64,000 nt of DNA from Gemmatimonadetes bacterium T265 (GTDB lineage: Bacteria > Gemmatimonadota > Gemmatimonadetes > Gemmatimonadales > Gemmatimonadaceae), in NCBI GenBank assembly GCA_019973575.1, contig BPUI01000002.1, forward strand, positions 1,178,001 to 1,242,000, written 5' to 3'. The translations under genes and the position numbers were made by a program. The notes beneath the pieces are model-generated. The model saw only the letters and a list, made by a program, of their open reading frames with translations, was not told the DNA's origin and made no database searches. Shown piece after piece: positions 32,026-36,301 of this stretch (its first letter is position 1; every line of letters begins with the position of its first letter).

Positions 32026-33432
32026 ATGCCCGCTCCCGCCCGTACGCTCGCCTCGCTCGCCCACGCGCTCGGCGCGGCCGCCGACGCCGACGCCGCGCTC
32101 CTCGCGTTCGGCGAATCCGTGGCGGAGCTGGACCGCGGCGCGCAGCCGGCGCTCTACACATACGACGGGCGGCGTCAGCTGCTCGTATCGCGGCGGACGG
32201 TCGCCGATGGGCGGGTCACCGCGACCGAGAGCGACGTCAGCCTCGAACACCTGCCCGCGGCCGTGCGACAGCAGCTCGCGCTCGGCGGTCGCTTCGTCGA
32301 CCTCGCGGAACGGTCGGCCGAGTTCGCCAGGCTGTTCGGGATGGCGACGCCGCTCGACGGGTCGCTCGCCCTGCGCGGCATTCGCGTGGAGGGGCAGTTG
32401 ATCGCGGTGCTCGCGCTCCGCGAGCCGCGGCGCATCTTCGGCGCGCGCGTCGTCGAACGCGCCGAACCGGCCGCCGCGCTGTTCGACCTCGCACTCGCGC
32501 GATTCGCGGAGCGCGACGCGCGCACCGAGGCCGTCGAGACGCTGGAGACGGTGACGCGCCGCGTACACGGGGAGTACGTGCGCAAGCTGAACGGGCTCGA
32601 GGCGGAGCTCGCCGCCGCGCGCAGCGCGCGGGCGGACGTGAGCCCGCCGCCGTCCGCCCCGTCGACGGAGCGACTCGTCGCGGAGCGGGCGAGTGCGCAG
32701 ACGGCCGAGCAGGTGCGGCGGGCGGAGCGACGCGCCGAGGTGCTCGAGCAGCAGCTCGCGGCCGGCGGCGGTCAGCTCGCGCAGGCGCAGCTCGAATCGC
32801 ACCGGCGAGGCGAGGCGCTGCGGCAGACCGAGCGGACGCTGTACCTGCTCGACCGCGTGCTCGCGCTCGACGCGGTCTCGACCGATCCGCAGGAGCTTGC
32901 CGACGGGCTCCTGGCCCTCGTCGGCGACGACACGCAGGCGCAGCGCTGCTCGCTGATGTTGCGCGCGCCGGAGCCCGGCTGGCTCTACCTCGCCGCGGCG
33001 CGCGGCGTCGCGCCGCACGTCATCGACGGCGTGCGCATCCGGATCGGGGAGGGCGTCGCCGGACGTGTCGCGGACGTACGCGAGCCGCTCCTCGTGCGCG
33101 ACGTCCGCGACGCGAGTGCGCACCCGCTGCTGCACGACCAGTATTTCACGACGGGGAGCTTCATCAGCTTCCCGCTCGTCTATCACGACGACCTCGTCGG
33201 CGTCGTGAACCTCACGAACCGTGCGTCGGCGTCCGCGTACGGCCCCGACGACGTCGAGCGCGTGCGGCTGCTCGCGCTCGTCATCGCGCTCGTCGCGACG
33301 CACGCGCGCCTGCCCGAGCGCCTCGCGGCCGGCGACCCGCGTCTGGCGTGGACCTCGACCGGGGCCGCGGCCGCCGACGAGCTGGCGCCGGCGGCTGCGC
33401 CGGCGGGGAACTCGGCACCCAGCCTCGGGTGA
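32026..33432 (+). CDS. Two-GAF-domain sensor-like protein with central coiled coil
   Basis: A 468-residue soluble protein. Residues ~1-165 resemble a degenerate GAF domain. Residues ~165-285 are heptad-rich and highly charged (TAEQVRRAERRAEVLEQQL), a coiled coil. Residues ~285-435 form a clear GAF domain (CSLMLRAPEPGWLYLAAARG, GEGVAGRVADVREPLLVRDV, SFISFPLVYHDDLVGVVNLTN). The tail is Ala/Pro-rich. There is no kinase, cyclase, phosphatase or DNA-binding domain, so any output must be through partners. Ligand unknown. trpD starts 19 nt downstream, suggesting co-transcription. Confidence 0.82.
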   Translation: MPAPARTLASLAHALGAAADADAALLAFGESVAELDRGAQPALYTYDGRRQLLVSRRTVADGRVTATESDVSLEHLPAAVRQQLALGGRFVDLAERSAEFARLFGMATPLDGSLALRGIRVEGQLIAVLALREPRRIFGARVVERAEPAAALFDLALARFAERDARTEAVETLETVTRRVHGEYVRKLNGLEAELAAARSARADVSPPPSAPSTERLVAERASAQTAEQVRRAERRAEVLEQQLAAGGGQLAQAQLESHRRGEALRQTERTLYLLDRVLALDAVSTDPQELADGLLALVGDDTQAQRCSLMLRAPEPGWLYLAAARGVAPHVIDGVRIRIGEGVAGRVADVREPLLVRDVRDASAHPLLHDQYFTTGSFISFPLVYHDDLVGVVNLTNRASASAYGPDDVERVRLLALVIALVATHARLPERLAAGDPRLAWTSTGAAAADELAPAAAPAGNSAPSLG

Positions 33433-33451
33433 CGGCCTTCCGAAACACGCC

Positions 33452-34507
33452 GTGAGCGGCGCGCCCGATCCGCTCCGCGGCGTGCTCCGCGAGCTGGCCG
33501 CGGGTCGCCCGGTGCAACCGGCGGAGGTCACGCTCGCGTTCGACGTCGTGATGCGCGGCGAGGCGAGCGCGGTACAGATCGCCGCCCTGCTCATGGGCCT
33601 GCGCGTGCAGGGGGAGAGCGCGGCGGTGATCGCCGCGGTCGCACGCGCGCTGCGCGGGGCGATGGTCCGACTGCCGTCCGCCGAGCCGGACGCGCTCGTC
33701 GACACCTGCGGGACGGGCGGCGGGGCGATCAGCACCTTCAACATCTCGACCGCCGCGGCGCTCGTCGCCGCCGGCGCGGGGGCACGGATCGCGAAGCACG
33801 GTAACCGCTCGTTCACCTCGCGGTCGGGGAGCGCCGACGTCCTCGAGGCGTTAGGCGTGCGCGCGGACCCGTCCGTTGCCGCCATGCAGCGCGCGCTCGC
33901 GACGGCGGGGATCGCGTTCATGTACGCGCCGGCGATGCACCCCGCGATGCGGCACGTCGGCGCGGTACGACGCGAACTCGCGGTGCCGACGGTGATGAAC
34001 GTCGTCGGCCCGCTCGCCAACCCGGCGATGGCCGGTCGGCAGGTCGTCGGCGTCGCGGACGCGCACCGCGCGCCGCTGATCGCCGGCGCGCTCGCCGACC
34101 TCGGGGCCGTGCACGCGCTCGTCGTCCACGGGGAGCCGGGGCTCGACGAGATCTCGCCGCTCGGCCCGACCCGCGTGTACGAGATCGTTGCCGACGCGGA
34201 CGGCCCGCGAGCGACCACGACGCGCGAGTGGACGATCAGCCCGCGGGCACTCGGCCTCGTGGCCCACGACGCGGCCGAGCTGGCGGGCGGCGCGCCGGAA
34301 GAGAACGCCCGCGTGGTGCTCGACGTGTTGGGTGGAGGCGGGCGCGAAGGCGCGCGGGCCGCGGTGCTGCTCAACGCGGGCGCGGCCGTGTACGTCGCCG
34401 GGCTGGAACCCACGTACGAAGCCGCGGTCGAGCGCGCACGGGCGGCGCTCGACCGCGGGTTGGGGCTGCGGGCGTTGGAGCTGTTACGGGCGGCGTACGC
34501 GGAGTAG
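33452..34507 (+). CDS. trpD: Anthranilate phosphoribosyltransferase
   Basis: Transfers the phosphoribosyl group from PRPP to anthranilate, tryptophan step 2. The 351-residue product has the PRPP motif DTCGTGGGAISTFNIST, the KHGNR motif and the anthranilate-side MHPAMRHVGAVRRELAVPT region near 165. The GTG start at 33452 follows the GAF gene by 19 nt; the frame is open upstream within that gene. It is separated from trpCFBA by convergent lexA and the repeat at 34521. No trpE/G is in the window. Confidence 0.94.
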   Translation: MSGAPDPLRGVLRELAAGRPVQPAEVTLAFDVVMRGEASAVQIAALLMGLRVQGESAAVIAAVARALRGAMVRLPSAEPDALVDTCGTGGGAISTFNISTAAALVAAGAGARIAKHGNRSFTSRSGSADVLEALGVRADPSVAAMQRALATAGIAFMYAPAMHPAMRHVGAVRRELAVPTVMNVVGPLANPAMAGRQVVGVADAHRAPLIAGALADLGAVHALVVHGEPGLDEISPLGPTRVYEIVADADGPRATTTREWTISPRALGLVAHDAAELAGGAPEENARVVLDVLGGGGREGARAAVLLNAGAAVYVAGLEPTYEAAVERARAALDRGLGLRALELLRAAYAE

Positions 34508-34641: not shown

Positions 34642-35259
34642 TCAAAACCGGCGGAGCACTCCGACGACGACGCCCTGGATGCTGATGTCGTTCTCGTGCA
34701 CGTAGATCGGATCCATCGTCTCGTTCGCGGGCTGCAGGCGGATGCGGCCGTCGCGCTCGCGGTAGAACTTCTTCACCGTGGACGAGCCGCCCGCGGTGCC
34801 GTGCGTCATCGCGATCACCATCTCGCCGTTGTCGGCGCTGCGGCGCTCGTTCACAACGACGAAGTCGCCGTCGTGGATGTGTGCATCGACCATCGACTGC
34901 CCGCGGACCTTCAGCACGTAGTGCGAGCCGCTCTTGCGCAGGAAGCTCTCCGGGACGGTCATCGTCTCGCCGGAGGTCATCGACTCGATCGGCACGCCGG
35001 CGGCGACGGCACCGAGCACCGGGAGCTCGACCGCGCGGGCGTAGACATCGGTCTCGAGGATCTCGATCGCGCGGCTCTCGTTGTAGCTGCGCTTGATGTA
35101 CCCCTTCCGCTCCAAGTTGCTGAGGTGTTCGTGCACCGTCGCCAGCGAGTTATAGTTGAACGCCTCGGCGATCTCCTCGAAGCTCGGCGCGAAGCCGTGG
35201 GTTTGCGAGTAGCTGCCGAGGTAGGTGAGGATCTCGCGCTGACGCTTGGTGAGCGGCAT
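34642..35259 (-). CDS. lexA: SOS repressor LexA
   Basis: Represses DNA-damage genes and self-cleaves when RecA is activated. The 205-residue product has an N-terminal winged helix-turn-helix (FEEIAEAFNYNSLATVHEHL, residues ~28-46), the cleavage site Ala87-Gly88 in GAVAAGVP, nucleophile Ser122 in GQSMVDAHIHDGD and the general base Lys163 in STVKKFYRE. The frame is open upstream, but ATG 35259 gives the family N-terminus LTKRQREIL and has GGAG 6-7 nt upstream, one of few real Shine-Dalgarno sites here. Its promoter and two operator-like repeats lie at 35357-35431. Confidence 0.95.
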   Translation of the reverse strand: MPLTKRQREILTYLGSYSQTHGFAPSFEEIAEAFNYNSLATVHEHLSNLERKGYIKRSYNESRAIEILETDVYARAVELPVLGAVAAGVPIESMTSGETMTVPESFLRKSGSHYVLKVRGQSMVDAHIHDGDFVVVNERRSADNGEMVIAMTHGTAGGSSTVKKFYRERDGRIRLQPANETMDPIYVHENDISIQGVVVGVLRRF

Positions 35260-35356: not shown

Positions 35357-35369
35357 CGAACAGTCGGCG
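35357..35369. promoter_or_regulatory. Putative LexA operator repeat 1 (CGAACAGTCGGCG)
   Basis: A 13-base direct repeat unit, matching the second unit at 35387 in 12 of 13 positions and starting exactly 30 bases (about three helical turns) from it. It lies in the lexA leader. Confidence 0.5.
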
Positions 35370-35386
35370 TGCGTCCGCGCGCCGCC

Positions 35387-35399
35387 CGAACAGTCGCCG
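35387..35399. promoter_or_regulatory. Putative LexA operator repeat 2 (CGAACAGTCGCCG)
   Basis: It begins 3 bases downstream of the lexA -10 box and covers the expected transcription start, the right place for autorepression. Confidence 0.55.
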
Positions 35400-35402
35400 A
35401 AA

Positions 35403-35431
35403 ACGCTAGCCGAAGATCGGCCGAAGTGCAA
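35403..35431 (-). promoter_or_regulatory. Promoter of lexA
   Basis: On the minus strand, TTGCAC (35431-35426), exactly 17 bases, TAGCGT (35408-35403). It predicts a start near 35396, inside operator repeat 2, and a ~135-nt leader. Confidence 0.65.
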
Positions 35432-35441
35432 GCAACGCCAG

Positions 35442-35447
35442 TAGCTG
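35442..35447 (+). promoter_or_regulatory. -10-like element TAGCTG for trpC (leaderless type)
   Basis: TAGCTG ends 5 nt before the GTG at 35453. It supports that GTG as the trpC start. No clear -35. Confidence 0.35.
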
Positions 35448-35452
35448 ACATC

Positions 35453-36301
35453 GTGCCGAACTCCGTCGCTCTCGCCGCCGACGATCGCTGGACCGCACCC
35501 GGCGGCGTCCTGGCCGAGTTGTGCGCGGCCGCGCGGGAGCGGGTCGCCGCGCTCCGCCCGCGAGCTGCCGAGCTGGAGCGGGCAGCCGCCGGCCGCCCGC
35601 TCCCGCCCAGCTTCGCGGGCGCGCTGCGGCGTGACGTGGTGTCCGTCGTCGCCGAGATCAAGCGATCGTCGCCGTCCAAGGGCGCGATCGCGCCGGGGCT
35701 GGACGCGGGCGATCAGGCGGTCGCGTACGCACGCGGCGGGGCCGCGGCGCTCTCCGTCCTGACGGAGCCGACACGCTTCGACGGCTCGATCGGCGACCTC
35801 GATGTGGCCGGGACCGCCGTCGCCGGCGCGGTGCCACTGCTGCGGAAGGACTTCGTCGTCGACCGACTACAGCTCGTCGAAGCGCGGGCGCACGGCGCGT
35901 CCGCGGTGTTGCTCATCGCACGTGCGCTCGCGCCGGCGACGCTCCGCGAGCTTGCGCGCGACGCCGTCGCGCTCGGGCTCGACGTGCTCGCCGAAGTGCG
36001 CGACGAGCGGGAACTCGACGCGGCGCTCGACGCGGGCGCGCCGGTGATCGGGGTGAACAACCGCAACCTCGAGACGCTCGCGATCGACCTCGCGACCGGC
36101 GAGCGGCTGGTTCCGTTGATCCCGGCGGACCGCGTCGCGGTGTTCGAGAGCGGCGTGCTCGGCCCCCAGGAAGTTGCGCGCGCGGCCGCGGTGGGTGCGG
36201 ACGCGGTCCTCGTCGGATCGAGCGTGTCGGCAGCGGCGGATCCGGCCGCCGCGGTCGCGGCGCTCACGCGCGTCGCTCGGCGCGCGCGGGGGCGCCCGTG
36301 A
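35453..36301 (+). CDS. trpC: Indole-3-glycerol phosphate synthase
   Basis: TIM-barrel enzyme closing the indole ring, tryptophan step 4. The 282-residue product has [15 protein letters not shown] (catalytic Lys), [27 protein letters not shown], the [14 protein letters not shown] motif and [10 protein letters not shown]. The start is uncertain: GTG 35453 is preferred (-10-like box 5 nt upstream), while GTG 35426 in frame adds nine residues but lies in the lexA -35 box. It is first in trpC-trpF-trpB-trpA, divergent from lexA, and overlaps trpF (GTGA). Confidence 0.94.

Follow-up and report, generated by a model that had tools for sequence, protein, structure and literature searches.

The window, a stretch of 64,000 nucleotides from the genome of Gemmatimonadetes bacterium T265, carries lexA in inverted orientation between trpD and trpC (Table 1). 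In a profile search, the product of this lexA scored 202 bits against TIGR00498, for which the cut-off is 111, and it contains a DNA-binding domain (PF01726, 70 bits) and an S24 peptidase domain (PF00717, 103 bits). The Ala-Gly cleavage site and the Ser/Lys catalytic pair were located by eye against LexA structures (VAAGVP, GQSM and VKKF) and, judged by its sequence, the protein is a full LexA. For comparison, the regions upstream of lexA were taken from the window and from 80 named loci, retained out of the 109 relatives that were found; these named relatives place the host in the Gemmatimonadaceae. trpD is a neighbour of lexA in 74 of the 80 named loci and trpC likewise in 74 of 80, with some of the misses being contig ends. 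A record labelled Candidatus Kuenenia stuttgartiensis (L034) has a lexA locus of the Gemmatimonadaceae type and is probably a mislabelled bin.

Table 1 Features around the lexA promoter, with positions counted from the first base of the window
Feature	Position	Strand	Remarks
trpD	33431..34507	+	convergent with lexA; PF00591 and PF02885 matches; start provisional
lexA, 205-aa repressor	34642..35259	-	TIGR00498, PF00717 and PF01726 matches
First 13-mer, CGAACAGTCGGCG	35357..35369	+	one half-site; not conserved; probably no operator
Candidate LexA operator box 2, TTCGGCGACTGTTCGG	35386..35401	-	just past the -10
Second 13-mer, CGAACAGTCGCCG	35387..35399	+	contained in box 2
lexA -10, TAGCGT	35403..35408	-	TANNNT conserved at this spacing
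Candidate LexA operator box 1, TTCGGCCGATCTTCGG	35410..35425	-	in the -35/-10 spacer; same place in relatives
lexA -35, TTGCAC	35426..35431	-	GTG on the opposite strand is a possible trpC start
trpC	35426..36301	+	divergent from lexA; PF00218, 232 bits; alternative later GTG at 35453

The original prediction had placed a candidate SOS operator on two 13-mers upstream of lexA whose starts lie 30 bp apart. Both are present verbatim, with one mismatch between them, and the promoter TTGCAC-N17-TAGCGT proposed ahead of lexA was also found, on the minus strand.

A direct repeat conserved in the lexA promoter

At least one exact TTCGG-N6-TTCGG was present in all 81 lexA regions and two boxes were present in 67 of them, compared to a mean of 0.2 of 81 regions with a box after shuffling, and no such box was found on the opposite strand of the 81 regions. 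When the fifth base was allowed to be G or C, a second box was present in 80 of the 81 loci, the exception being L020. Direct pairs of TTCGG occurred 148 times at a gap of 6, once at a gap of 7 and never at gaps of 0-5, and the larger gaps between direct pairs reflect the distance from box to box. Inverted and everted pairs were few and scattered, without a preferred gap, in both sets of regions. The element is a direct repeat of head-to-tail half-sites with a period of 11 bp, one helical turn, and no palindrome.

The position of the boxes relative to the promoter is also conserved. Box 1 is directly preceded by a TTG-type -35 in 80 of the 81 lexA loci, and TANNNT is found 17 bp past the -35 in 80 of 81. 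Of the 80 loci with a box 2, 79 have its start 23-37 bp downstream of that of box 1, most commonly 26 bp, and a single locus has it at 16; in the window the two boxes are 24 bp apart.

Boxes at other SOS genes and across the phylum

Upstream of recA, sampled as the 30 best-scoring loci from 61 genomes searched, TTCG[GT]-N6-TTCGG was present in 28 of 30 loci and the remaining two had TTCGC-N6-TTCGG; the recA of this genome carries TTCGTAGTTTGTTCGG. Scored as TTCG-N7-TTCGG, all 30 recA loci were positive, and the same element at both the lexA (81 of 81) and the recA promoters is as expected of an SOS operator. The earlier claim of a candidate SOS operator at lexA, in the form of a phylum-specific LexA box, holds in this shape.

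The imuA-like genes, defined by a weak RecA-family match and having, in 13 of 18 loci, a Y-family polymerase match no more than about 1.5 kb away, had an exact box in 12 of the 18 loci and a box with one mismatch in one further locus. The exact box was missing at 6 of 18, including all three loci of family f3 in the count, which covered three of six f3 candidates. In this genome, a weak RecA-family match at C1:763767 was rejected as imuA, being by eye a KaiC-like frame. The single PF00817 match of this genome was taken as dinB-like and therefore no imuB was seen; no box lies upstream of the dinB-like gene. Two radical-SAM DNA-repair genes of the TIGR03916 type were found in this genome via their boxes. 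In relatives, a box was present at all five radical-SAM loci with upstream sequence, while a sixth begins at a contig end, and these six loci score below the TIGR03916 family cut-off. uvrA was dropped as a core member of the regulon, with a box at the main uvrA in only 4 of 30 loci, and none at the main uvrA of this genome; the uvrA paralogue has a box here, but among 17 relatives it has one only once.

This genome contains 27 exact TTCGG-N6-TTCGG sites, compared to 1 for the reversed pattern. The 27 include two at lexA and those at the uvrA paralogue, the two radical-SAM genes and a Rad52/22-family gene, and many of them fall within or beside genes that have no obvious part in the SOS response. 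The Rad52/22-family gene (PF04098, 76 bits; L208 4430-5193) has the box TTCGGTATATATTCGG about 100 bp upstream of it. Triple arrays of TTCGG half-sites, 11 bp apart, were observed around one DUF5131 gene and one TcmP gene (L207 5756-8687; G000:C2:1371755-1374686), and two similar small divergent frames (L210 4358-4670 and L211 4590-4942) each stand beside an exact box.

In families f2-f9, 40 more regions upstream of lexA were compared: TTCGG boxes were present in 35 (30 with two) and TTCGS boxes in all 40 (34 with two); fewer than two TTCGS boxes were present at lexA in G182, G194, G188, G152, G155 and G031. The five f9 genomes, which belong to another class of the same phylum, carry TTCGC-N6-TTCGC at lexA (L382-L386 with L284-L288). 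The recognition helix of LexA contains TVHEH in 80 of 80 named proteins and in 15 of 15 from f2-f8, and TVHKH in the five f9 proteins; in family f8, both the Glu in the helix and TTCGG are kept. The switch of helix and half-site in f9 may be a single evolutionary change and is therefore a lead only. In one f9 genome (G152), a TTCGC array precedes UmuD-like and UmuC-like genes, the UmuC match being below its cut-off. Genome-wide TTCGS counts in f9 were not enriched over the reversed control among the matches listed (24/46, 43/38, 43/54, 37/32 and 24/27), and of two non-lexA sites followed from these matches, one is that at the umuDC-like pair of G152, while no SOS gene was seen at the other, G153:C253.

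The predicted operator and its rivals

TTCGG-N6-TTCGG is very probably the site of the LexA repressor. Another DNA-damage regulator might bind the repeat in place of LexA, and a candidate is at hand in LexA2, encoded in this genome at L302 945-1580 (G000:C2:257944-258537; TIGR00498, 169 bits; 36% identical to lexA), a second LexA match being common in relatives of this family; in principle, such a protein could also share the boxes with LexA. This reading is improbable given that all 81 loci have the boxes in front of lexA itself, whereas no TTCGG box was found by eye upstream of LexA2 in 20 loci, and genomes with a single LexA match, such as G010, G036 and G060, keep boxes at lexA (L104, L118 and L114). 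The second LexA of another family (L304, G049:C262) has the Bacillus-like helix SSSTVHAHL and, upstream, CGAACACATGTTCG, in which the same half-site letters are inverted.

Less probable again is an operator in which LexA would bind, along a single face of the DNA, to each of two CGAACAGTCG-type sites with a 30-bp spacing. Both copies do lie next to lexA, and the second overlaps the box proposed here. The 13-mer repeat alone is weak evidence, however, and unremarkable in GC-rich DNA: the window contains 45 13-mer pairs that differ at no more than one base at distances of 14-60, where 20 first-order Markov shuffles averaged 24.5, pairs at a distance of exactly 30 numbered 2 compared to 0.5, and the repeat pattern with up to two mismatches gave 15 matches where 17.8 were expected. 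The 10-mer CGAACAGTCG has 12 copies in the genome, compared to 1 for the reversed control, and only the two at lexA adjoin a TTCGG-N6-TTCGG box. By coordinates, none of the 12 lies upstream of recA, of either uvrA or of the dinB-like gene of this genome, and CGAACAGTCG is not conserved ahead of lexA in relatives. It was rejected as a genome-wide motif, with no copy near another SOS gene examined. The search proposed in the original prediction, at recA and uvrA of this genome and at lexA of relatives, came out against its motif, and absence from other SOS genes and from the lexA promoters of relatives was what that prediction had itself named as refuting it; CGAACAGTCG therefore fails as the operator motif. 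Nor does the 30-bp pair survive as an operator, as only one half-site falls in the repeat at 35357, which is missing from the three nearest relatives (L094-L096, LexA 84% identical). The repeat was read in the wrong register, and the earlier motif, its register and the role given to 35357 do not hold.

On the trpC strand, the first in-frame start of trpC is a GTG within the lexA -35 in 40 of 81 loci and falls within box 1 in another 32, which makes 72 loci in all. The scan for trpC starts left 6 of 81 loci unrecognised by the script, including the window, where the GTG at 35426 is in frame; later in-frame starts are possible, such as GTG 35453 in the window. A role of the repeats for trpC or the trp genes, through a trp regulator or a translation signal, with the lexA overlap coincidental, would fit this arrangement but is scarcely credible given the same element ahead of recA, imuA-like and radical-SAM repair genes and its exact fit to the lexA promoter. 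With LexA as the binding protein, a repressor bound to box 1 would be expected to cover the trpC start or to sit beside it, and an effect of LexA on trp expression is plausible by way of the trpC frame opening at the lexA -35. Where trpC starts inside box 1, the CAA conserved in some box 1 spacers may therefore be, on the opposite strand, a trpC start codon. In L052, the trpC N-terminus is apparently frame-shifted at an A-run compared to the near-identical L051 and L053, perhaps through a sequencing error.

The region is, with high probability, an autoregulated lexA promoter in which two adjacent LexA operators, each a direct repeat TTCGG-N6-TTCGG, lie on the coding strand of lexA. Direct observations on the genomes give the sites and where they lie in the promoter, how they are spaced and oriented, how far they are conserved, and that they recur at other SOS genes. 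By analogy with the LexA family, we infer LexA binding, its stoichiometry, repression and induction as follows. LexA, presumably as one dimer per box, would bind each direct repeat. Box 1 occupies the -35/-10 spacer, and the start point is expected to lie under box 2, so that bound LexA would exclude RNA polymerase. Upon DNA damage, activated RecA would lead to self-cleavage of LexA and to the release of lexA and recA, of the radical-SAM repair gene, of the imuA-type cassette in genomes that have one, and of further genes.

The Bacillus-type LexA box is the palindrome GAAC-N4-GTTC, in which the letters GTTC(G) are close to the (G)TTCGG found here; inverted TTCGG pairs, however, are rare here and without fixed spacing. 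In Alphaproteobacteria, the LexA box is GTTC-N7-GTTC according to a study in which 17 distinct LexA motifs are counted and their divergence is discussed (PMC8565304). The two elements have in common a direct repeat with an 11-bp period, with TTC-N8-TTC in both, but the half-site here is TTCGG and not GTTC, and an exact GTTC-N7-GTTC occurs in only 1 of 164 boxes. The original prediction dismissed this type, but the element found here has the same layout, head to tail at 11 bp, with a different half-site. In Balneolaeota, PMC7739468 describes a direct-repeat LexA box, TTACACATATTTTWTACATA, with binding observed by gel shift and a regulon that includes recA, translesion polymerases and a radical-SAM protein, and direct-repeat recognition by LexA is said there to appear independently evolved in several instances. 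Both would be direct-repeat LexA operators of little-studied phyla, with a radical-SAM gene and recA in both regulons, but the half-sites reported there are unrelated and AT-rich, and binding by gel shift there stands against sequence sites here. No report of a LexA motif for Gemmatimonadota was found, including in the accessible text of PMC3919608, in a search that most subscription papers lay outside. Direct-repeat LexA boxes are already known elsewhere, and what sets the predicted operator apart is its TTCGG half-site.

A wider scenario, in which the TVHEH LexA came independently to recognise a direct repeat of TTCGG, the Glu to Lys change in f9 went with the G to C change of the fifth base, and LexA gates tryptophan synthesis in most of the named loci, is speculative and on balance unlikely. 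If true, the operator assignment would provide an SOS box for Gemmatimonadota, from which the DNA-damage regulon could be read in genome sequence, and would add one more direct-repeat LexA operator to those known. The natural pair of TTCGG with TVHEH and TTCGC with TVHKH would offer a simple test of a change in LexA target, and, with the trpC start overlapping the lexA promoter, a connection of tryptophan synthesis to DNA damage could be tested directly.
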